NCBI RefSeq assembly: GCF_036924535.1
Contig: NZ_JAZHRT010000001.1
Span: forward strand, 9,228,501 to 9,292,500
Reading direction: 5' to 3'
DNA: 64,000 nucleotides
From: Bradyrhizobium sp. AZCC 2262
GTDB lineage: Bacteria; Pseudomonadota; Alphaproteobacteria; Rhizobiales; Xanthobacteraceae
Positions 31,842 to 41,172 of the stretch are shown here, piece after piece; the first letter of the stretch is position 1, and each line of letters starts with the position of its first letter. A model generated the notes under the pieces. That model did not search any database. It saw only the letters and a program-made list of their open reading frames with translations, and was not told the DNA's origin. Both the position numbers and the translations under genes were made by a program.

Positions 31842-32237
31842 TTGGACACCAGCGAACTGTACGCGCGAGGCCTGCGCCGGCGCAAAAAGCTGTTCGGCGA
31901 GGCCGATGTGGCCGAACGCATGGCAGCAGCAGGCGAATTCGGGGCGCCGCTGCAGAACATCATCAATGCCTATGTCTATGGCGACGTCTGGGAGCGGCCG
32001 GCCCTCACCGACGCGATGCGCAGCCTGGTGATGCTCGGCATGATGGCTGCCAGCAGCAAGCCTGCCGAATTCCGCGTCCACGCCAAGGGTGCGCTGGCGA
32101 ACGGCTGCACGGCCGCGCAGGTTCAGGATGTCCTGCTGCTGGTGGCGATGTATTGCGGCGTGCCGGCCGCGATCGAGCCGACGCGTATCGCCGCTGAAAT
32201 CTTCGGCGAAGTTGCCGACCCTGCAGCGAAGTCGTAG
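31842..32237 (+). CDS. Carboxymuconolactone decarboxylase family protein
   Basis: 131 residues from a TTG start preceded by GGAGGAG six bases away. The sequence matches gamma-carboxymuconolactone decarboxylase (PcaC) more than AhpD: RRKKLFGEADVAER, SLVMLGMMAA, HAKGALANGCTAAQVQDVLLLVAMYCGVPAAIEPTR, with the histidine of the PcaC active site (H-A-K-G-A-L). It lacks the CxxC pair of peroxidase-type members. It would decarboxylate or isomerise a lactone or oxo-acid intermediate. First gene of the rightward operon. Confidence 0.88.
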   Translation: MDTSELYARGLRRRKKLFGEADVAERMAAAGEFGAPLQNIINAYVYGDVWERPALTDAMRSLVMLGMMAASSKPAEFRVHAKGALANGCTAAQVQDVLLLVAMYCGVPAAIEPTRIAAEIFGEVADPAAKS

Positions 32238-32384
32238 GCGGACGGCTGTACCGGATATGATTCCTGCAGACCCGCTATGCTGCGCTGCTAAACGGCCGCC
32301 AAACCCTTGCGCCGGAGGGTTATCGGCGGCACATTTGCGCGCGCGACGCCAAGATCGCCGAAACGAAAAGCCTGAGGAAGCTCC

Positions 32385-33446
32385 ATGGCGGCCACGCGGA
32401 TCGACTGCGATATTCATCCCGCGGTGGGCGGAACCCGCACCACGCTGCTGCCCTATCTCGACGACCACTGGAAAGAGCAGGTGGTCAGCCGCGCCATCGA
32501 CGGCCTCGATCTCAACTCCTATCCGCCCAACATGCCGTTCTCGGGGCGCGCCGATTGGCGGCCGGCCAAGGGCAAGCCCGGCTGCGAGCTTGCGATGGTG
32601 CAGCGCGGCGCGTTCGACCAGCTCGGTTCGAGCCATGCGATCTGCAACGTCGTCTACGGCGCGCAGGCGGTGTTCGATTCCTACATGGCGGCCGGCTTCT
32701 GCAAGGCGATCAACGACTGGATCGCGGCCGAATGGTTGTCGAAGGATTCTCGGCTGAGCGCCTCGATCGTGGTGCCGATGCAGGCGCCTGATCTGGCCGT
32801 CGAAGAAATCGAGCGGCGCGCCGCTGACAATCGCTTCGTCTCCGTCCTCGTGCTGGCGCAGGGCGACAGCCTGCTCGGCAAGCGGCACTTCTGGCCGGTC
32901 TGGCAGGCAGCCGAAAAGCACAAGCTGCCGGTCGCGATCCACGCCGGCAGCGCCTATCGCGGCGCGCCGAGTTCGATCGGCTGGCCGTCCTATCGCTACG
33001 AATATTATCTCGCCGAAGCGCAGGCGTTCCAGGCGCAGATTTTGAGCCTGGTCTATGAAGGCGTGTTCGGTAAATTTCCCGGGCTGAAAGTCGTGCTGAT
33101 GGAATCGGGCGTGAGCTGGCTGCCGGCCTTCATGTGGCGCGCCAACAAGACCTGGCGCGGCGTCCGCGTCGAGGTGCCCTGGGTCGAGCGCGAGCCGGCT
33201 TCGATCATCCGCGACCATATCCGCGTCACCATGCAGCCGTTCGACGGTCCGCCCGATGCCGCAGGCGTTGCCGACGTCATCGAGCAGATCGGCTCCGACA
33301 AGATGTTCCTGTTTGCGTCGGACTATCCGCACTGGCAGTTCGACGGCGACGACCCGGTGCCGCCGCATCTGCCTGCCAGCATTGTCTCGCGCATGTGCGC
33401 CGATAATCCGCTTGAAACCTTCCCGCGGCTGAAGCTCGCGGCTTGA
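32385..33446 (+). CDS. Amidohydrolase family protein, ACMSD-like
   Basis: 353 residues. The metal motif IDCDIHPAVGG opens the TIM-barrel; other expected ligands are VAIHAGSAYRG and the terminal FASDYPHWQFDGDD. This set is typical of the amidohydrolase_2 group that includes 2-amino-3-carboxymuconate semialdehyde decarboxylase and related non-oxidative decarboxylases and hydrolases. It lies 147 bases after the decarboxylase-like gene and 24 bases before a paralogue. Confidence 0.9.
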   Translation: MAATRIDCDIHPAVGGTRTTLLPYLDDHWKEQVVSRAIDGLDLNSYPPNMPFSGRADWRPAKGKPGCELAMVQRGAFDQLGSSHAICNVVYGAQAVFDSYMAAGFCKAINDWIAAEWLSKDSRLSASIVVPMQAPDLAVEEIERRAADNRFVSVLVLAQGDSLLGKRHFWPVWQAAEKHKLPVAIHAGSAYRGAPSSIGWPSYRYEYYLAEAQAFQAQILSLVYEGVFGKFPGLKVVLMESGVSWLPAFMWRANKTWRGVRVEVPWVEREPASIIRDHIRVTMQPFDGPPDAAGVADVIEQIGSDKMFLFASDYPHWQFDGDDPVPPHLPASIVSRMCADNPLETFPRLKLAA

Positions 33447-33470
33447 GCCAGAATACACAAGGAGGATCGC

Positions 33471-34583
33471 ATGAGTGATGTCATCGACCGCCCCATCCTC
33501 GCCGAGGAAGCCGCCGCCAAAAGCCGCCTGCGTATCATCGATTGCGACGTGCATCCGAGTATCCACGCGCATTCCGATATCGAACAGTTCATGCCGAAGC
33601 GCTGGCAGGAGCATCTTCGCACCTATGGCAGCCATCTGCGCACGCCCTATATCGGCACCACGCCGTATCCGCGCTCTTCGCCGTTGATCGCGCGCCGCGA
33701 TGCCTGGCCGCCGACCGGCGGGCCTCCGGGCTCCGATCTTGATTTCATGCGCAAGCAGCATCTCGATCCGCTCGATATCGAGTATGGCATTCTGCAGGTG
33801 CTCGATCTCTTTATCTTCTCGCAGCAGAATCTTGAGTTCGGCGCCGCGATCCAGCGCGCCATCAACGACTGGCAGCTCGCGTTCTGGTCCGACCGCGATC
33901 CGCGATTGAAGGCCTCCATCCTCGCCGGTCAGGACGACACGCAGCTTGCGATCGCCGAGATCGAGCGCTGCGCGAAAATCGGCCGCTATGTCCAGATCAA
34001 TGTCTGCCCGCGCGCCAACGAGCCGCTCGGCCGCCGGCGCTACTGGCCGATCTACGCACGCGCGCAGGAGCTCGGCCTGCCGCTCGGCATTCATGTCGGC
34101 GGCTATGGCGGGCACGCGCCGACCGGCGGCGGCTGGCCGTCTTATTATGCCGAGGAGCACCAGTCGAACGCGCACACCATGGCGGCGCAGCTCACCAGCC
34201 TCGTGCTCGAAGGCGTTCCCGAACGCTTCCCGAACCTCAAGATTATTTTCATCGAGGGCGGTTTCGGCTGGATCCCGTCGGCGACGTGGCGGATGGATCG
34301 GCATTTCGAGGCCTTCCGCAGCGAGGTGCCGCATCTCAAGCGCAGGCCATCGGAGTATGTGAAGGAGCATTTCTGGTTCACGACGCAGCCGATCGACGAG
34401 CCAGATGAAGGCAAGCATCTGCGCTCGCTGATCGAATGGGTCGGCGTCGACCGCCTGCTGTTCTCGTCGGACTATCCGCACTGGGATTTCGACGATCCGC
34501 GCTACGCCTTCAGGACGCCGCTGACCGAGACCGAACGCCGCAAGATCTTTAACGGCAACGCGCGCGCGCTCTACAAGCTCTGA
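33471..34583 (+). CDS. Amidohydrolase family protein, ACMSD-like, second copy
   Basis: 370 residues with RIIDCDVHPSIHAHSDIEQF, LGIHVGGYGGHAP and FSSDYPHWDFDDPRYAF. The architecture matches the preceding gene, so the two probably arose by duplication and may form a heteromeric enzyme or catalyse successive steps. An AGGAGG-like site lies ahead of the ATG. Eighteen bases separate it from the Rieske gene. Confidence 0.9.
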   Translation: MSDVIDRPILAEEAAAKSRLRIIDCDVHPSIHAHSDIEQFMPKRWQEHLRTYGSHLRTPYIGTTPYPRSSPLIARRDAWPPTGGPPGSDLDFMRKQHLDPLDIEYGILQVLDLFIFSQQNLEFGAAIQRAINDWQLAFWSDRDPRLKASILAGQDDTQLAIAEIERCAKIGRYVQINVCPRANEPLGRRRYWPIYARAQELGLPLGIHVGGYGGHAPTGGGWPSYYAEEHQSNAHTMAAQLTSLVLEGVPERFPNLKIIFIEGGFGWIPSATWRMDRHFEAFRSEVPHLKRRPSEYVKEHFWFTTQPIDEPDEGKHLRSLIEWVGVDRLLFSSDYPHWDFDDPRYAFRTPLTETERRKIFNGNARALYKL

Positions 34584-34600
34584 TCGGCGACAAGGAAAAC

Positions 34601-35014
34601 ATGACCCGGCACATCGTCGCCCGCACCTCGGACATCCCGCCCGGCGGCAACAAGGTTTTCGGCGTCGACGGCCGCGACATCGTCGTGTTCCACGTCAACG
34701 GCGAGTTCTTCGCGCTGCTCAATCGCTGCCCGCATGCGGGTGCGCCGCTGGAGAAGGCCGCCTGCGTCGCGCGACTGACCTCGCCGGAGCCGGGCGTCTA
34801 CGAACGTTCGCGCGTCGGCGAGTTGTTGCGCTGCGCGTGGCACGGCTGGGAATTCGACATGCGCAATGGGCAATCCTGGTTCGATCCGAAGCGGGTGAAG
34901 ATCCGCTCTTATCCGGTCTCGGTCGAGAGCGGCGAGGTGTTGCAGAAGGGGCCGTATGTGGCGGAAACCTTCCCGGTTCATGTCGAAGACAGCTACGTCA
35001 TCATCGAGACTTAG
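34601..35014 (+). CDS. Rieske [2Fe-2S] ferredoxin-like protein
   Basis: 137 residues with the cluster ligands CPHAG (Cys and His) and CAWHGWEFD, the spacing of Rieske ferredoxins and oxygenase N-terminal domains. No oxygenase catalytic domain follows, so it should act as an electron carrier for an aromatic-ring oxygenase or with one of the neighbouring enzymes. Its last 21 bases before the stop are duplicated at 36341, and the stop now present (TAG 35012-35014) belongs to an inserted segment; the original TGA lies at 36363-36365. The final residues Y-V-I-I-E-T are unchanged either way. Confidence 0.9.
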   Translation: MTRHIVARTSDIPPGGNKVFGVDGRDIVVFHVNGEFFALLNRCPHAGAPLEKAACVARLTSPEPGVYERSRVGELLRCAWHGWEFDMRNGQSWFDPKRVKIRSYPVSVESGEVLQKGPYVAETFPVHVEDSYVIIET

Positions 35015-36361
35015 CTGTAACGCCTGTCCGGCGCGATTCTGTCCCGCCGAAGTTATGGATGACGATCTTACTCCTCATCCCCAGCCAAAATTTGGTGTGT
35101 AACTCTATAAAATCACGAGATTCTAGATCGCTTAGAGCCCCAAGAGCGTATGATTGTATTGGGTCAATACTGCAGTGATAAGTTGAATATTGATACTATA
35201 ATACGAACTTGATTCTCAAGTTGGCGAGCTTCCCACATGGCGGTCAAGAAAGTATTTTTCGCGTATCCTTCAAGTCAAACGGAAGTGATGCAGGCCGCTA
35301 AAGGCGCGGGACGTCTGGTTGCAAGTCGAGGTAACGAAATCTATTTGCGTCTTTGGGTCGAGAACGATATCGCCGGCCGACCACTTACTGATCCGATTTT
35401 CCAAGAGATTCATCAATGCGATATTCTGTTTGCAGACGTCACAACCGTAAATTTTAATGTGACGTTCGAGATCGGATACGCGATTGGCCTCGGAAAACGT
35501 GTCCACATTACCCGCAACACGAATTTCCGCCGAGAAGTGGAGCTAATTGATAAAATTGGCGTATTCGACACCCTAGGGTTCGAGCCATATTCCAATGAGG
35601 AAGACCTAGCGAGGATGATACTTGACGCCAATAGTGATGGGGCGATCAGGTTAAGTTCCGTACTAAATGTTAAAGCGCCAATCTATGTGTTGAACACGCC
35701 GACTACGGGTCAAGCAATGTTGGCGATTGTTTCGCGCATTAAGAAAGCTCGACTCGGTTTCAGGAGTTTCTTTCCACAAGAAGAGCCGCGTCTATCCGCC
35801 ATCAAGGCGGTGGATGACGTTTCTGCCTCGTTGGGCGTGGTCGTTCCGTTGCTATCTAAAGACTTTGCTGACGCTGACATTCATAATATGCGCGCCGCGT
35901 TTGTTGCGGGCGTCGCTCTTGCTATGGCGAAAGCCACAGTTATCCTTCAGCCATCAAACGGTCCTGCCCCGCTTGATGTTCGCGATCTTGTTAAGACTTA
36001 TGCTCGGTCGGAAGACATAGCTGATCAAATAGGTGAATTGGCCCTCGACGTTACGGAGAGACTGCAAGCGGTCGAACCTCTACCAATTCCTACAGGTAAT
36101 TTCCTAGCGCAGCTTTCCCTAGGCGACCCTATTGCCGAGAACGAATTTCAAACTTTGGGAAAGTATTTCTTGCGGACTGATGAATTCGGTCGAGCCTCGC
36201 GGGGTGAGGTCAATATAGTATTAGGGCGCAAAGGGGCCGGCAAAACTGCCTTGTTTTCTCAATTGCGTAACGAAAAGAGAGAAAATTCACAAAACATCGT
36301 CGTTGACCTGAAGCCTGAGGGATATCAGCCTCATCAGGCTCAGCTACGTCATCATCGAGAC
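34990..36361. mobile_element. Insert flanked by 21-bp direct repeats at the Rieske gene 3' end
   Basis: The 21 bases at 34990-35010 recur exactly at 36341-36361; the next bases differ (TTAGC against GTGAGG). Reading through the right copy gives S-Y-V-I-I-E-T then TGA, the same end as the Rieske protein. The segment between is visibly AT-richer than both flanks and holds one truncated gene, no integrase and no inverted ends. It therefore looks like an integrated element reduced by deletion, or a foreign fragment captured at a staggered break. Confidence 0.8.
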
Positions 36362-36439
36362 GTGAGGCGCCGGCGCCAGCCTGTCCTGATACGAAGATAT
36401 CCTCTCATTTTGATCTCACGCAAAGGAGCCATTCCATGA
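35237..36439 (+). pseudogene. TIR/nucleoside deoxyribosyltransferase-like protein with P-loop, C-terminally truncated
   Basis: The first ~365 residues are a coherent protein. An N-terminal Rossmann-like domain has KVFFAYPSSQ and DVTTVNFNVTFEIGYAIGLGKRV, the E-containing strand-helix of nucleoside 2-deoxyribosyltransferase/TIR-like folds. A second similar domain has LGVVVPLLS and FVAGVALAMAKATVIL. Then comes a linker and a Walker A, VLGRKGAGKTALFSQL, followed by VVDLKPEGYQ, resembling large P-loop ATPases of the Sll1717 type. After Q the frame crosses the right 21-bp repeat and continues 35 arginine-rich residues that are out-of-frame host DNA. The ATPase core and everything after are lost. 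Intact relatives often sit in anti-phage islands. AT-rich upstream region 35015-35236. Confidence 0.75.
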
Positions 36440-37410
36440 CGCACGCCATTCGCTTCCACAAAACAGGCGGTCCCGAAGTTCTGGTCTGGGAAGAGGTCGC
36501 GGTCGGAAAACCCGGTCCGGGCGAGGCACGCATCCGCCACACCGCGGTCGGGCTGAACTTCGTCGACATCTACAATCGTTCAGGACTTTATCCGGCTCAG
36601 TTGCCGAGTGGCCTCGGGGGCGAGGCGGCCGGCGTGGTCGAGGAAGTTGGTTCCGGCGTCACCGATCTGAAGCCCGGCGATCGCATTTGCTATGGCAGCG
36701 CGCCGATCGGCGCCTATGCCGAAGCGCGGTTGATCCCGGCCGATCGGCTGCTCAAGCTGCCTGATGGCGTCGACGACAAGACCGCGGCGGCGATGATGCT
36801 GAAAGGCCTGACGACGCAATACCTGATCCGCCAGGTCTATCGGGTCAAGGCGGGAGACACGATCCTGCTGCACGCCGCGGCCGGCGGCGTCGGCCTGATC
36901 CTCAGCCAATGGGCCAAGCATCTTGGCGCCACCGTCATCGGTACCGTCGGCAGCGACGAGAAGGCAAAGCTCGCCAAGGCCCATGGCTGCGCCCACACCA
37001 TCGTTTACACGCGCGAGGATTTCGCCAAACGCGTCGATGAGATCACCGGCGGCAAGAAGGTGCCCGTCGTGTACGATTCCGTCGGCAAGGACACGTTCCT
37101 GAAATCGCTGGACTGCCTGGCTCCAACCGGCGTCGCCGCGCTGTTCGGGGCATCCTCCGGCGCGGTCGATCCGCTCAACCTCGGCCTGCTGGCGCAGAAG
37201 GGATCGCTGTTCGTCACGCGGCCGACGCTCAACACCTATGCCGCCAAGCGGGACAACCTCGTCGCCATGGCGAACGAACTGTTCGATGTCGTGAAATCAG
37301 GCGCGGTCAAGATCGAGGTGCATCAGACCTATCCGCTGAAGGACGCGGCGAAGGCGCATGCCGATCTCGCCGCGCGCAAGACCACGGGCTCGACGGTTCT
37401 AACCGTGTGA
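36436..37410 (+). CDS. qor: Quinone oxidoreductase (zinc-free medium-chain dehydrogenase family)
   Basis: 324 residues. Typical QOR features: MTHAIRFHKTGGPEVLVWEEV, GLNFVDIYNRSGLY, GGEAAGVVEEVG, AAAGGVGLILSQWAKHLGATVIGTVG with the NADPH-binding AxxGxxG, and no zinc cysteine cluster. It would reduce quinones with NADPH. Before the insertion at 34990-36361 its start would have been 71 bases after the Rieske stop, so it was probably the last gene of the same operon; its ribosome site AAAGGAG at 36421 lies in host sequence. Confidence 0.93.
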   Translation: MTHAIRFHKTGGPEVLVWEEVAVGKPGPGEARIRHTAVGLNFVDIYNRSGLYPAQLPSGLGGEAAGVVEEVGSGVTDLKPGDRICYGSAPIGAYAEARLIPADRLLKLPDGVDDKTAAAMMLKGLTTQYLIRQVYRVKAGDTILLHAAAGGVGLILSQWAKHLGATVIGTVGSDEKAKLAKAHGCAHTIVYTREDFAKRVDEITGGKKVPVVYDSVGKDTFLKSLDCLAPTGVAALFGASSGAVDPLNLGLLAQKGSLFVTRPTLNTYAAKRDNLVAMANELFDVVKSGAVKIEVHQTYPLKDAAKAHADLAARKTTGSTVLTV

Positions 37411-37521
37411 CCGCCTTGCAGGGCGCGAACGCGCCCAGGAGAACGGTCGTGTCGCTCGCAAAATGGTAACCTCAGCGCGAGGCCGCGCCGAGGTCACCTG
37501 ACGATATCAGCCGATGCGCGA

Positions 37522-38052
37522 TCAACCGCAGACCTGAACGGGCTGGTGCCGCCAGCCATGGCTGGTGTGCACGCGTCGCTGCACCACGTAGCAGCCGCCG
37601 CCATCGTCGTAATCGGCGTAGGGATCGTAGGTATAGTCGTTATAGTCGTCATAGTAGTCGTACGGATAGAAGCCGTAGCCTAGCCCAGAACCGAATGCGA
37701 AGCGGTTTCCGAAGCGGCCGTGGAATCCCCGGCCGTAACCACCATTGTGGAATCCGCCTGCGAAGCCGCCGCCATGAAAGCCGCCTCCACGGAAACCACC
37801 GCCAGCAAAGCCGCCGCCGTGGAAGCCGCCGCCACCAAAACCGCCGCCGTGGAAGCCACCGCCGCCAAAGCCGCCGCCGTGGAAGCCGCCGCCGCCAAAG
37901 CCACCGCCATGGCCGCCTCCGCCGCCAAAGCCGCCGCCACCGCCGTGGCCGCCTCCGCCTCCACCTCCACCGCCGCGCGCCAACGCCATCGTTGGCGAAA
38001 CCAGACCCAGGGCGGCAACCGCCAACAACGCGATCAAACTCTTGCGCACCAT
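37522..38052 (-). CDS. Secreted glycine/histidine/phenylalanine repeat protein
   Basis: 176 residues from ATG 38052, with GGAGAG five bases upstream. A signal peptide (MVRKSLIALLAVAALGLVSPTMALA) leads to a low-complexity region of tandem HGGGFGGGGF-type units, then a tyrosine/aspartate-rich segment (DYYDDYNDYTYDPYADYDDGGGC) and a tail CYVVQRRVHTSHGWRHQPVQVCG with cysteines that could pair. The family is common in rhizobia and its role is unknown; metal or surface binding is speculation. Monocistronic. Confidence 0.82.
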   Translation of the reverse strand: MVRKSLIALLAVAALGLVSPTMALARGGGGGGGGGHGGGGGFGGGGGHGGGFGGGGFHGGGFGGGGFHGGGFGGGGFHGGGFAGGGFRGGGFHGGGFAGGFHNGGYGRGFHGRFGNRFAFGSGLGYGFYPYDYYDDYNDYTYDPYADYDDGGGCYVVQRRVHTSHGWRHQPVQVCG

Positions 38053-38224
38053 AATCACTCTCCGTCAGATCTCGCTCCCAACCGCGATACTTCTGACGTG
38101 GCGATCGTTTTTGAAATCGCTATTGCGATCGACGCGTTTGCCGCTCAACTGTTCGCGATGCCCGGCTAAAAGAAAATTTAAACATCGGCGATCCGATGTT
38201 ACGCCTGTAACAGCATTGCCGCGA

Positions 38225-39678: not shown

Positions 39679-39954
39679 ATGAACCAGAACGTCCAACCCC
39701 ACAGCGGTGCCTGGGTTACCTTCACCTATGTTTCGTTTTCCGCCTCCGCCTTCATGGTCGCCGTCGGCGTGTTCTTCCTGCCGCTCGATCTCTGGATCAA
39801 GGGCTATCTCGCGATGGGCATCGTCATGCTCGTCCAGTCCTGCGTCACCCTGACCAAGACCGTGCGCGACATGCACGAGAGCGGCAAGATGGTGAACCGC
39901 ATCGAAGACGCCAAGGCCGAGCGGTTGCTGATGGAAGTTTCCAAGGCTGCCTGA
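39679..39954 (+). CDS. YiaA/YiaB family inner-membrane protein, copy 1
   Basis: 91 residues with two transmembrane segments (WVTFTYVSFSASAFMVAVGVFFLPL and KGYLAMGIVMLVQSCVTLTKTV) and a cytosolic helical tail (RIEDAKAERLLMEVSKAA). A YiaA/YiaB domain covers the membrane part. It follows pspA by 44 bases with an AGGAG site. YiaA-type proteins often accompany pspA in proteobacteria; exact function unknown. Confidence 0.88.
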   Translation: MNQNVQPHSGAWVTFTYVSFSASAFMVAVGVFFLPLDLWIKGYLAMGIVMLVQSCVTLTKTVRDMHESGKMVNRIEDAKAERLLMEVSKAA

Positions 39955-40896: not shown

Positions 40897-41172
40897 GTGA
40901 ATCAGAATTCCCCGCATCACAGCAATGCCTGGGTCACCTTTACCTACGGATCGTTCGGCGCCTCGGCCTTCCTGGTCGCAATTGGCGTCTACTTTCTCCC
41001 GGTTGACCTCTGGATCAAGGGTTATCTCGCGATGGGCATCGTGATGCTCATTCAGTCCTGCGTCACCCTGACCAAGACGGTTCGAGACGTGCATGAGAGC
41101 AGCCGCTTTGTGAACCGCATCGAGGATGCCAAGGCCGAACGGCTGCTGATGGAAGTTTCCAAGGCTTCGTAG
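40897..41172 (+). CDS. YiaA/YiaB family inner-membrane protein, copy 2
   Basis: 91 residues from a GTG start. Same length as copy 1 and near-identical in the C-terminal half (IEDAKAERLLMEVSKAS), with WVTFTYGSFGASAFLVAIGVYFLPVDL in the first membrane segment. It is a recent tandem duplicate of the gene at 39679, together with its downstream hairpin, separated by the four-helix membrane gene. Such paralogues may form mixed oligomers. Confidence 0.88.
   Translation: MNQNSPHHSNAWVTFTYGSFGASAFLVAIGVYFLPVDLWIKGYLAMGIVMLIQSCVTLTKTVRDVHESSRFVNRIEDAKAERLLMEVSKAS

Follow-up and report, generated by a model that had tools for sequence, protein, structure and literature searches.

A truncated ATPase gene between direct repeats at the Rieske gene end of Bradyrhizobium sp. 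AZCC 2262: a possible scar of illegitimate recombination

Genomic islands use the 3' ends of genes as targets for their integration. SGI1, for instance, integrates at the 3' end of trmE, as stated in an excerpt of one report (PMC8409611). With the islands located at the 3' ends of protein-coding genes, the insert described here shares the direct repeat of the gene end, the preserved gene product and the foreign composition; however, it differs from them in that no integrase was found, the cargo gene is cut and the relatives sampled exhibit no occupied site. A second set of described events comprises homology-facilitated illegitimate recombination (HFIR) and the capture of a circle by single crossover, which have in common with our locus a foreign fragment placed beside what may be host homology, one low-homology joint, a partial duplication of the target and the lack of a recombinase, although here we deal with a natural product found in one genome rather than with an experiment. 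In a study on E. coli (PMC3240628), recombinants with a partial target duplication of 109-950 bp (14 clones sequenced) are explained by the single crossover of a circular molecule, and HFIR occurred too. A displacement model for T6SS loci, in which old gene ends are left behind, is outlined in another paper (PMC5361080), and both papers describe HFIR as rare (PMC3240628, PMC5361080).

The window, i.e., the whole stretch of 64,000 nucleotides analyzed in this work, comes from Bradyrhizobium sp. AZCC 2262. As judged from the comparison with related sequences, what separates the Rieske gene from the quinone oxidoreductase gene (qor) is a 1.3-kb insertion of foreign DNA. The features of the region are the following.

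34601..35014 (+): Rieske [2Fe-2S] ferredoxin-type gene, intact, stop codon TAG (PF00355, E=1.4e-15; protein 93-94% identical to those of the best relatives)
34990..35010 (+): left 21-mer, which encodes the C-terminal end of the Rieske protein
35011..35064 (+): probably what is left of a host Rieske-qor spacer; its last bases, ATGACG, are the six with which qor opens in the window and in L079
35065..35236 (+): AT-rich DNA (40% GC) preceding the captured gene; a promoter-like site lies at 35175-35202
35237..36340 (+): 5' fragment (about 365 codons) of a deoxyribosyltransferase-like/Sll1717 P-loop ATPase gene, with a one-base frameshift near its end
36224..36247 (+): GRKGAGKT, the last recognizable part of the ATPase, conserved in a 13-row alignment with one position A/T
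36341..36361 (+): right 21-mer, the closing bases of a Rieske gene, directly adjoining the truncated gene
36362..36435 (+): right Rieske-qor spacer, of the typical kind, containing a ribosome-binding-type site and the TGA at 36363-36365; it matches L018 best, with a local score of 47
36436..37410 (+): qor, intact (PF00107/PF08240; 88.5% to L018)

The original prediction, made from the letters of this DNA, reported that 21 bases at the 3' end of the Rieske gene recur beyond the insert. This recurrence is exact: the 21-mer CAGCTACGTCATCATCGAGAC is found at 34990-35010 and at 36341-36361, with a start-to-start distance of 1351 bp, and the host genome (9,475,967 bp) harbors just these two exact copies, both at the Rieske-qor junction. 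The idea that the 21-mer is a common repeat was rejected on the basis of this count; allowing up to three mismatches adds two more 21-mer-like places in the genome, each with three mismatches. By simple arithmetic, the chance of finding an exact 21-bp repeat within 3.5 kb is about 1e-6, so that the repeat is unlikely to be accidental. The left copy reads ...VIIET and is followed by TAG, and the right one is followed by the TGA at 36363-36365, which looks like the original gene end, as had been suggested. The C-terminus of the Rieske protein is preserved by the 21-mers at 34990 and 36341, i.e., the repeat restores the gene end. No tRNA that might have served as the target of insertion lies within the window. 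The exact 21-mer is also present, as the lone copy anticipated for insert-free relatives, in 8 of the 80 relative loci described below (the best 80 of 148), and it can therefore be regarded as a conserved coding stretch. Thus, two alleles of the gene end could share the 21-mer without this being an att core, and could do so while their spacers differ.

A total of 148 stretches encode a relative of the Rieske protein; the best 80 were kept as loci, 76 of which belong to Bradyrhizobium, the other four being L006, L010, L036 and L067. A match to qor lies 46-73 bp after the Rieske gene in 14 of the 80 relatives, in agreement with the uninterrupted spacing of about 70 bases that had been expected, and 66 of the 80 lack an adjacent qor match. 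The insert DNA has no blastn match in any of the 80 loci and is absent from all the 19 distinct Rieske-qor spacers obtained after adding further genomes of the genus. The closest relative, L007 (Bradyrhizobium sp. SRL28), whose matched flanks are 89-93% identical, has neither the insert nor qor at this place. The view that the insert splits a catabolic operon is thus sustained as far as the insertion is concerned, since 14 of the 80 relatives are uninserted, but the operon itself is not general, as a qor match was found next to the Rieske gene in only those 14.

As for the neighborhood, the close relatives L005, L007, L008, L009, L011, L014, L020 and L021 have no Rieske-adjacent qor match, and L079 and others have one beside the Rieske gene. 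The stretch between the Rieske gene and a tetR-type gene is a variable, plastic spot, with different short inserts among relatives. On the minus strand of the window, a glycine-rich repetitive ORF of 178 aa (37522-38058; signal-like start by eye, no Pfam match) has a matching stretch in L014, there without qor; on the plus strand, a pair of similar ORFs of 91 aa each, spaced by about 1.2 kb (39679-39954 and 40897-41172), are apparent tandem paralogues, with paired matches also in several relatives. In the trees, constructed by a quick method, the right flank pairs the window with L007 (SH-aLRT 97) and next with L079 (98); the left-flank tree, from which L007 was left out because its match splits in two, and the qor tree do not resolve the position of the window. 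Neither the amidohydrolase-Rieske flank nor qor shows a visible change of ancestry.

The GC content is 64.3% in 32000-34989, 48.3% in 35011-36340 and 65.5% in 36436-38000. Hence, the insert is indeed AT-richer than its flanks (48.3% vs. 64-66% GC), as had been noticed, but the left change in composition sits near 35060 and not at 35011, with 58.3% GC in 35011-35058 and 40.1% in 35065-35236. The evidence for the promoter-like site is weak, because four such sites were found against a mean of 2.0 in shuffled sequences.

The frame opening at 35237, which as read extends to 36439, is the sole long frame of the insert; it is not a recombinase, and the remark that no recombinase is left is correct in this respect. 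Its full-length relatives measure 695-786 aa. Residues 56-96 resemble nucleoside 2-deoxyribosyltransferases (PF05014, 24.3 bits, under the cut-off of 28.8), and residues 295-367 match positions 1-70 of the 454 of NF047389 (P-loop ATPase Sll1717 family) with 65.1 bits, a score that does not reach the curated cut-off of 75 bits; the complete-ATPase homologues L088, P0034 and P0050 score 272-310 bits with the same model. The string GRKGAGKT at 36224..36247 is the Walker A motif. Compared with the Sll1717-family ATPases possessing an N-terminal deoxyribosyltransferase-like region, the fragment is 88% identical, over the part that it covers, to the nearest homologue listed and keeps Walker A, but it retains only the first 70 model positions, at a sub-cut-off score. 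No literature naming Sll1717 together with a P-loop ATPase was found.

The protein database yielded 290 matching proteins, the nearest of which, among the matches listed, are 88% and 85% identical. Within the genus, matches are present in 15 of 265 genomes, the window counted; the five best others are 34-45% identical, with frames of 737-786 aa. In the 13-row protein alignment, the sequences agree as far as ...DLKPEGYQ; from there the window departs, and most of the others go on into the ATPase. Several rows are themselves cut or frameshifted, and P0001, the nearest, stops a few residues beyond this point. At the DNA level, the alignment with two plasmid genes shows homology that reaches about 36342; about 18 bases before its end lies the one-base frameshift. 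Homology to the ATPase gene ends, that is, at the right repeat, just past Walker A and behind the frameshift; the insert is therefore a 5' gene fragment, and its right edge a joint inside the gene. At this joint, 2-3 bp of possible microhomology (CA/CAG) can be read by eye from the alignment. No other NF047389 match that might represent the remainder of the ATPase was found in the host genome, and the captured half-gene is probably dead. Close homologues that also end early are P0001 (376 aa, a few residues past the joint of the window) and P0020 (283 aa).

Concerning the source of the insert, a copy from elsewhere in the same genome was rejected, since neither a second copy of the insert nor another Sll1717 ATPase match was found in the host genome. 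Any match to the insert is limited to 29 of the 391 genomes of the family, mostly to the Rieske end only or to fewer than 45 bases; no donor was found among these 391 genomes, where the longest match outside the window spans 214 bases at 65% identity (G500). Plasmids gave two DNA matches at 64% and 14 records by protein; when the DNA preceding the plasmid genes from R. johnstonii and Mesorhizobium was compared with 35011-35256, it scored no better than shuffles. Six exact peptide patterns had no match in viral contigs.

Nine chosen genes were scanned as neighbors in four homologue regions, two of them from L190. Near complete-ATPase homologues we found HamA (L193:8882-9913, E=8.2e-64), a Schlafen AlbA_2 gene (L192:8237-9169) and a phage integrase gene (L191:4846-5469); these neighbors fit defense islands and suggest a possible defense role. 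The fragment itself has no clear defense match in PADLOC or NCBIfam, and at most weak ones to anti-phage systems (DS41_1_antiphage, 25 bits vs. a cut-off of 370); with PADLOC it gives a weak 19.9 bits to a TIR effector, and its homologues are likewise weak against defense models.

The short stretch following the left 21-mer (35011-35064) deserves separate attention. Its best match is the spacer of L079, with a local score of 32 that none of 1000 shuffles reached over the 19 spacers and a global score of 36, equalled by 1 of 2000 shuffles and by 4 of 2695 slices of real sequence; in a comparison that included more and longer sequences, 3 of 200 shuffles reached the local score. With the right spacer it shares a 31-column block with a local score of 28, which 5 of 2000 shuffles and none of 333 slices attained, and in the global comparison the right spacer is not among its five best matches. 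Averaged over the 19 spacers, its score does not exceed that of shuffled sequences, of which 32 in 300 reach it, and it scores at noise level with most genuine spacers other than L079, the genuine spacers scoring 38-125 against each other in the sampled pairs. The left spacer thus resembles that of L079 and not the others, and host homology on this side of the insert rests mainly on L079. On these comparisons, a second, diverged host spacer is probably present on the left, up to about 35064. The left copy would then carry a host-like spacer, so that the duplicated stretch may exceed 21 bp, having diverged outside its coding part, and the duplication might comprise the entire Rieske-qor junction, present as two versions that coincide only where the conserved coding sequence lies.

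On the whole, we suggest, giving it about an even chance, that the insert is the scar of an illegitimate recombination with foreign DNA, which left a partial duplication of the Rieske-qor junction and involved no dedicated recombinase. The parts that can be directly observed are the uninserted relatives, the foreign gene cut midway at the right edge and the partial second Rieske end located there. A fragment with the promoter region and the first half of a putative defense-type ATPase gene would have been joined into the junction, the left side likely running through the second, diverged host spacer to about the start codon of qor; with such a spacer, the host junction would be present twice, in two versions. 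The route might have been HFIR or a single crossover involving a ligated circle: the incoming DNA would have paired with host homology at one end, the other being joined inside the end of a Rieske gene through a microhomology of 2-3 bp at most. Both HFIR and the single-crossover integration of circularized fragments yield such an arrangement. The recombination is taken as illegitimate because the gene is cut exactly at the repeat, the microhomology does not exceed 2-3 bp and no recombinase was found; indeed, the right joint has little or no homology. The idea is also in agreement with the grouping of L079, the source of the left-spacer likeness, next to the window and L007 in the right-flank tree, and with the GC drop at about 35060. 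Against a capture with homology stand the two new joints needed, the failure to find a donor among the 391 family genomes, the lack of a visible ancestry switch, the dependence of the left-spacer match mainly on L079 and the rarity of HFIR according to both papers. As the Rieske protein remained whole and qor retained the spacer that precedes it, the insert was tolerated.

A different mechanism, which we regard as possible though rather unlikely, is end-joining, that is, repair of the Ku/LigD type: a break with 21-base staggered ends would have been filled in and ligated to a stray fragment, so that 21 bp of the target would be duplicated without any homology being involved. It would account for an exact 21-bp duplication enclosing a gene fragment, for the microhomology of 2-3 bp at most at the right joint and for a single long frame without a mobile-element gene. 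However, foreign DNA would be expected right after the left 21-mer, yet 35011-35064 is host-spacer-like and of intermediate GC, and the immediate TAG stop on the left would be a matter of luck (about 3 in 64 by arithmetic).

The original prediction had instead regarded the duplication of the gene end as the mark of site-specific integration. This claim was not supported, as the right boundary cuts a foreign gene midway, no recombinase was found and no islands were found in the relatives sampled. An element of this kind should end outside its genes, whereas here the right end cuts the ATPase gene, and one would not expect an att site to lie halfway through a cargo gene. The only long frame of the insert, the truncated ATPase, is neither an integrase nor an excisionase gene; of the 25 PF00589 matches in the genome, not one falls within the insert, and the closest, at 9199266, is about 64 kb off. 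Larger, integrase-bearing islands, which had been envisaged at this site, were not found in the loci sampled. When 25 integrase frames from this genome (its own tyrosine recombinases, 22 at the given frame length, the other three being maybe wrong frames) served as tblastn queries, no integrase was found downstream of the Rieske gene in 109 loci, namely 80 with flanks of at most 8 kb and 29 whose flanks measure about 1.5 kb, some probably from the same genomes; fragments appeared in L070 alone, at 3.2-3.4 kb, upstream of its Rieske gene. Moreover, a Pfam scan of one representative for each of 28 of the 31 clusters of downstream ORFs, some of them probably antisense frames, gave no recombinase family among the matches listed (to E=0.00047). 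The Rieske site is not seen to be occupied by islands elsewhere, with no insert match in the 80 relatives and no integrase in the 109 loci. Judging from these sequence data, the att reading of the repeats is probably wrong, and the repeat more probably represents an ordinary scar, a gene end that recombination has duplicated, than the mark of an integrase.

An unlikely variant would save the island by assuming that an integrase recognized the Rieske end, that the 21-mers are attL and attR, and that the integrase and half of the cargo gene, up to attR, were lost in a subsequent deletion. The direct repeat at a gene 3' end with the protein kept intact, the cargo possibly of defense type and the integrase gene near the complete-ATPase homologue of L191 speak for such a remnant; nevertheless, the deletion must have stopped precisely where the core begins on its left, no integrase was found behind the Rieske gene in the 109 loci screened with the 25 tyrosine recombinase frames (29 loci being short-flanked), and no recombinase family is listed for the 28 representative downstream ORFs.

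It is quite improbable that a tandem duplication of about 80-100 bp at the Rieske-qor junction preceded, in this lineage, the capture of a foreign fragment between the two copies and the decay of the left spacer. The 31-column block common to the two spacers would fit such a history, but 21 identical bases out of 21 beside an almost unalignable stretch do not speak of uniform decay, and the left spacer scores at least as well against L079 (32) as against the right spacer (28). Finally, there is very little chance that the 21-mer is the core of an as yet unseen integrase target in the conserved Rieske 3' end and the insert the trimmed remnant of a small undescribed island with a deoxyribosyltransferase-Sll1717 ATPase defense gene.

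Coming back to illegitimate recombination, a direct repeat of a gene end around AT-rich DNA, which invites an att reading, can instead flag a captured gene fragment, and a useful check in such cases is whether or not the repeat interrupts a foreign gene. On a small scale, the locus documents in nature how half a gene enters a chromosome between conserved genes.
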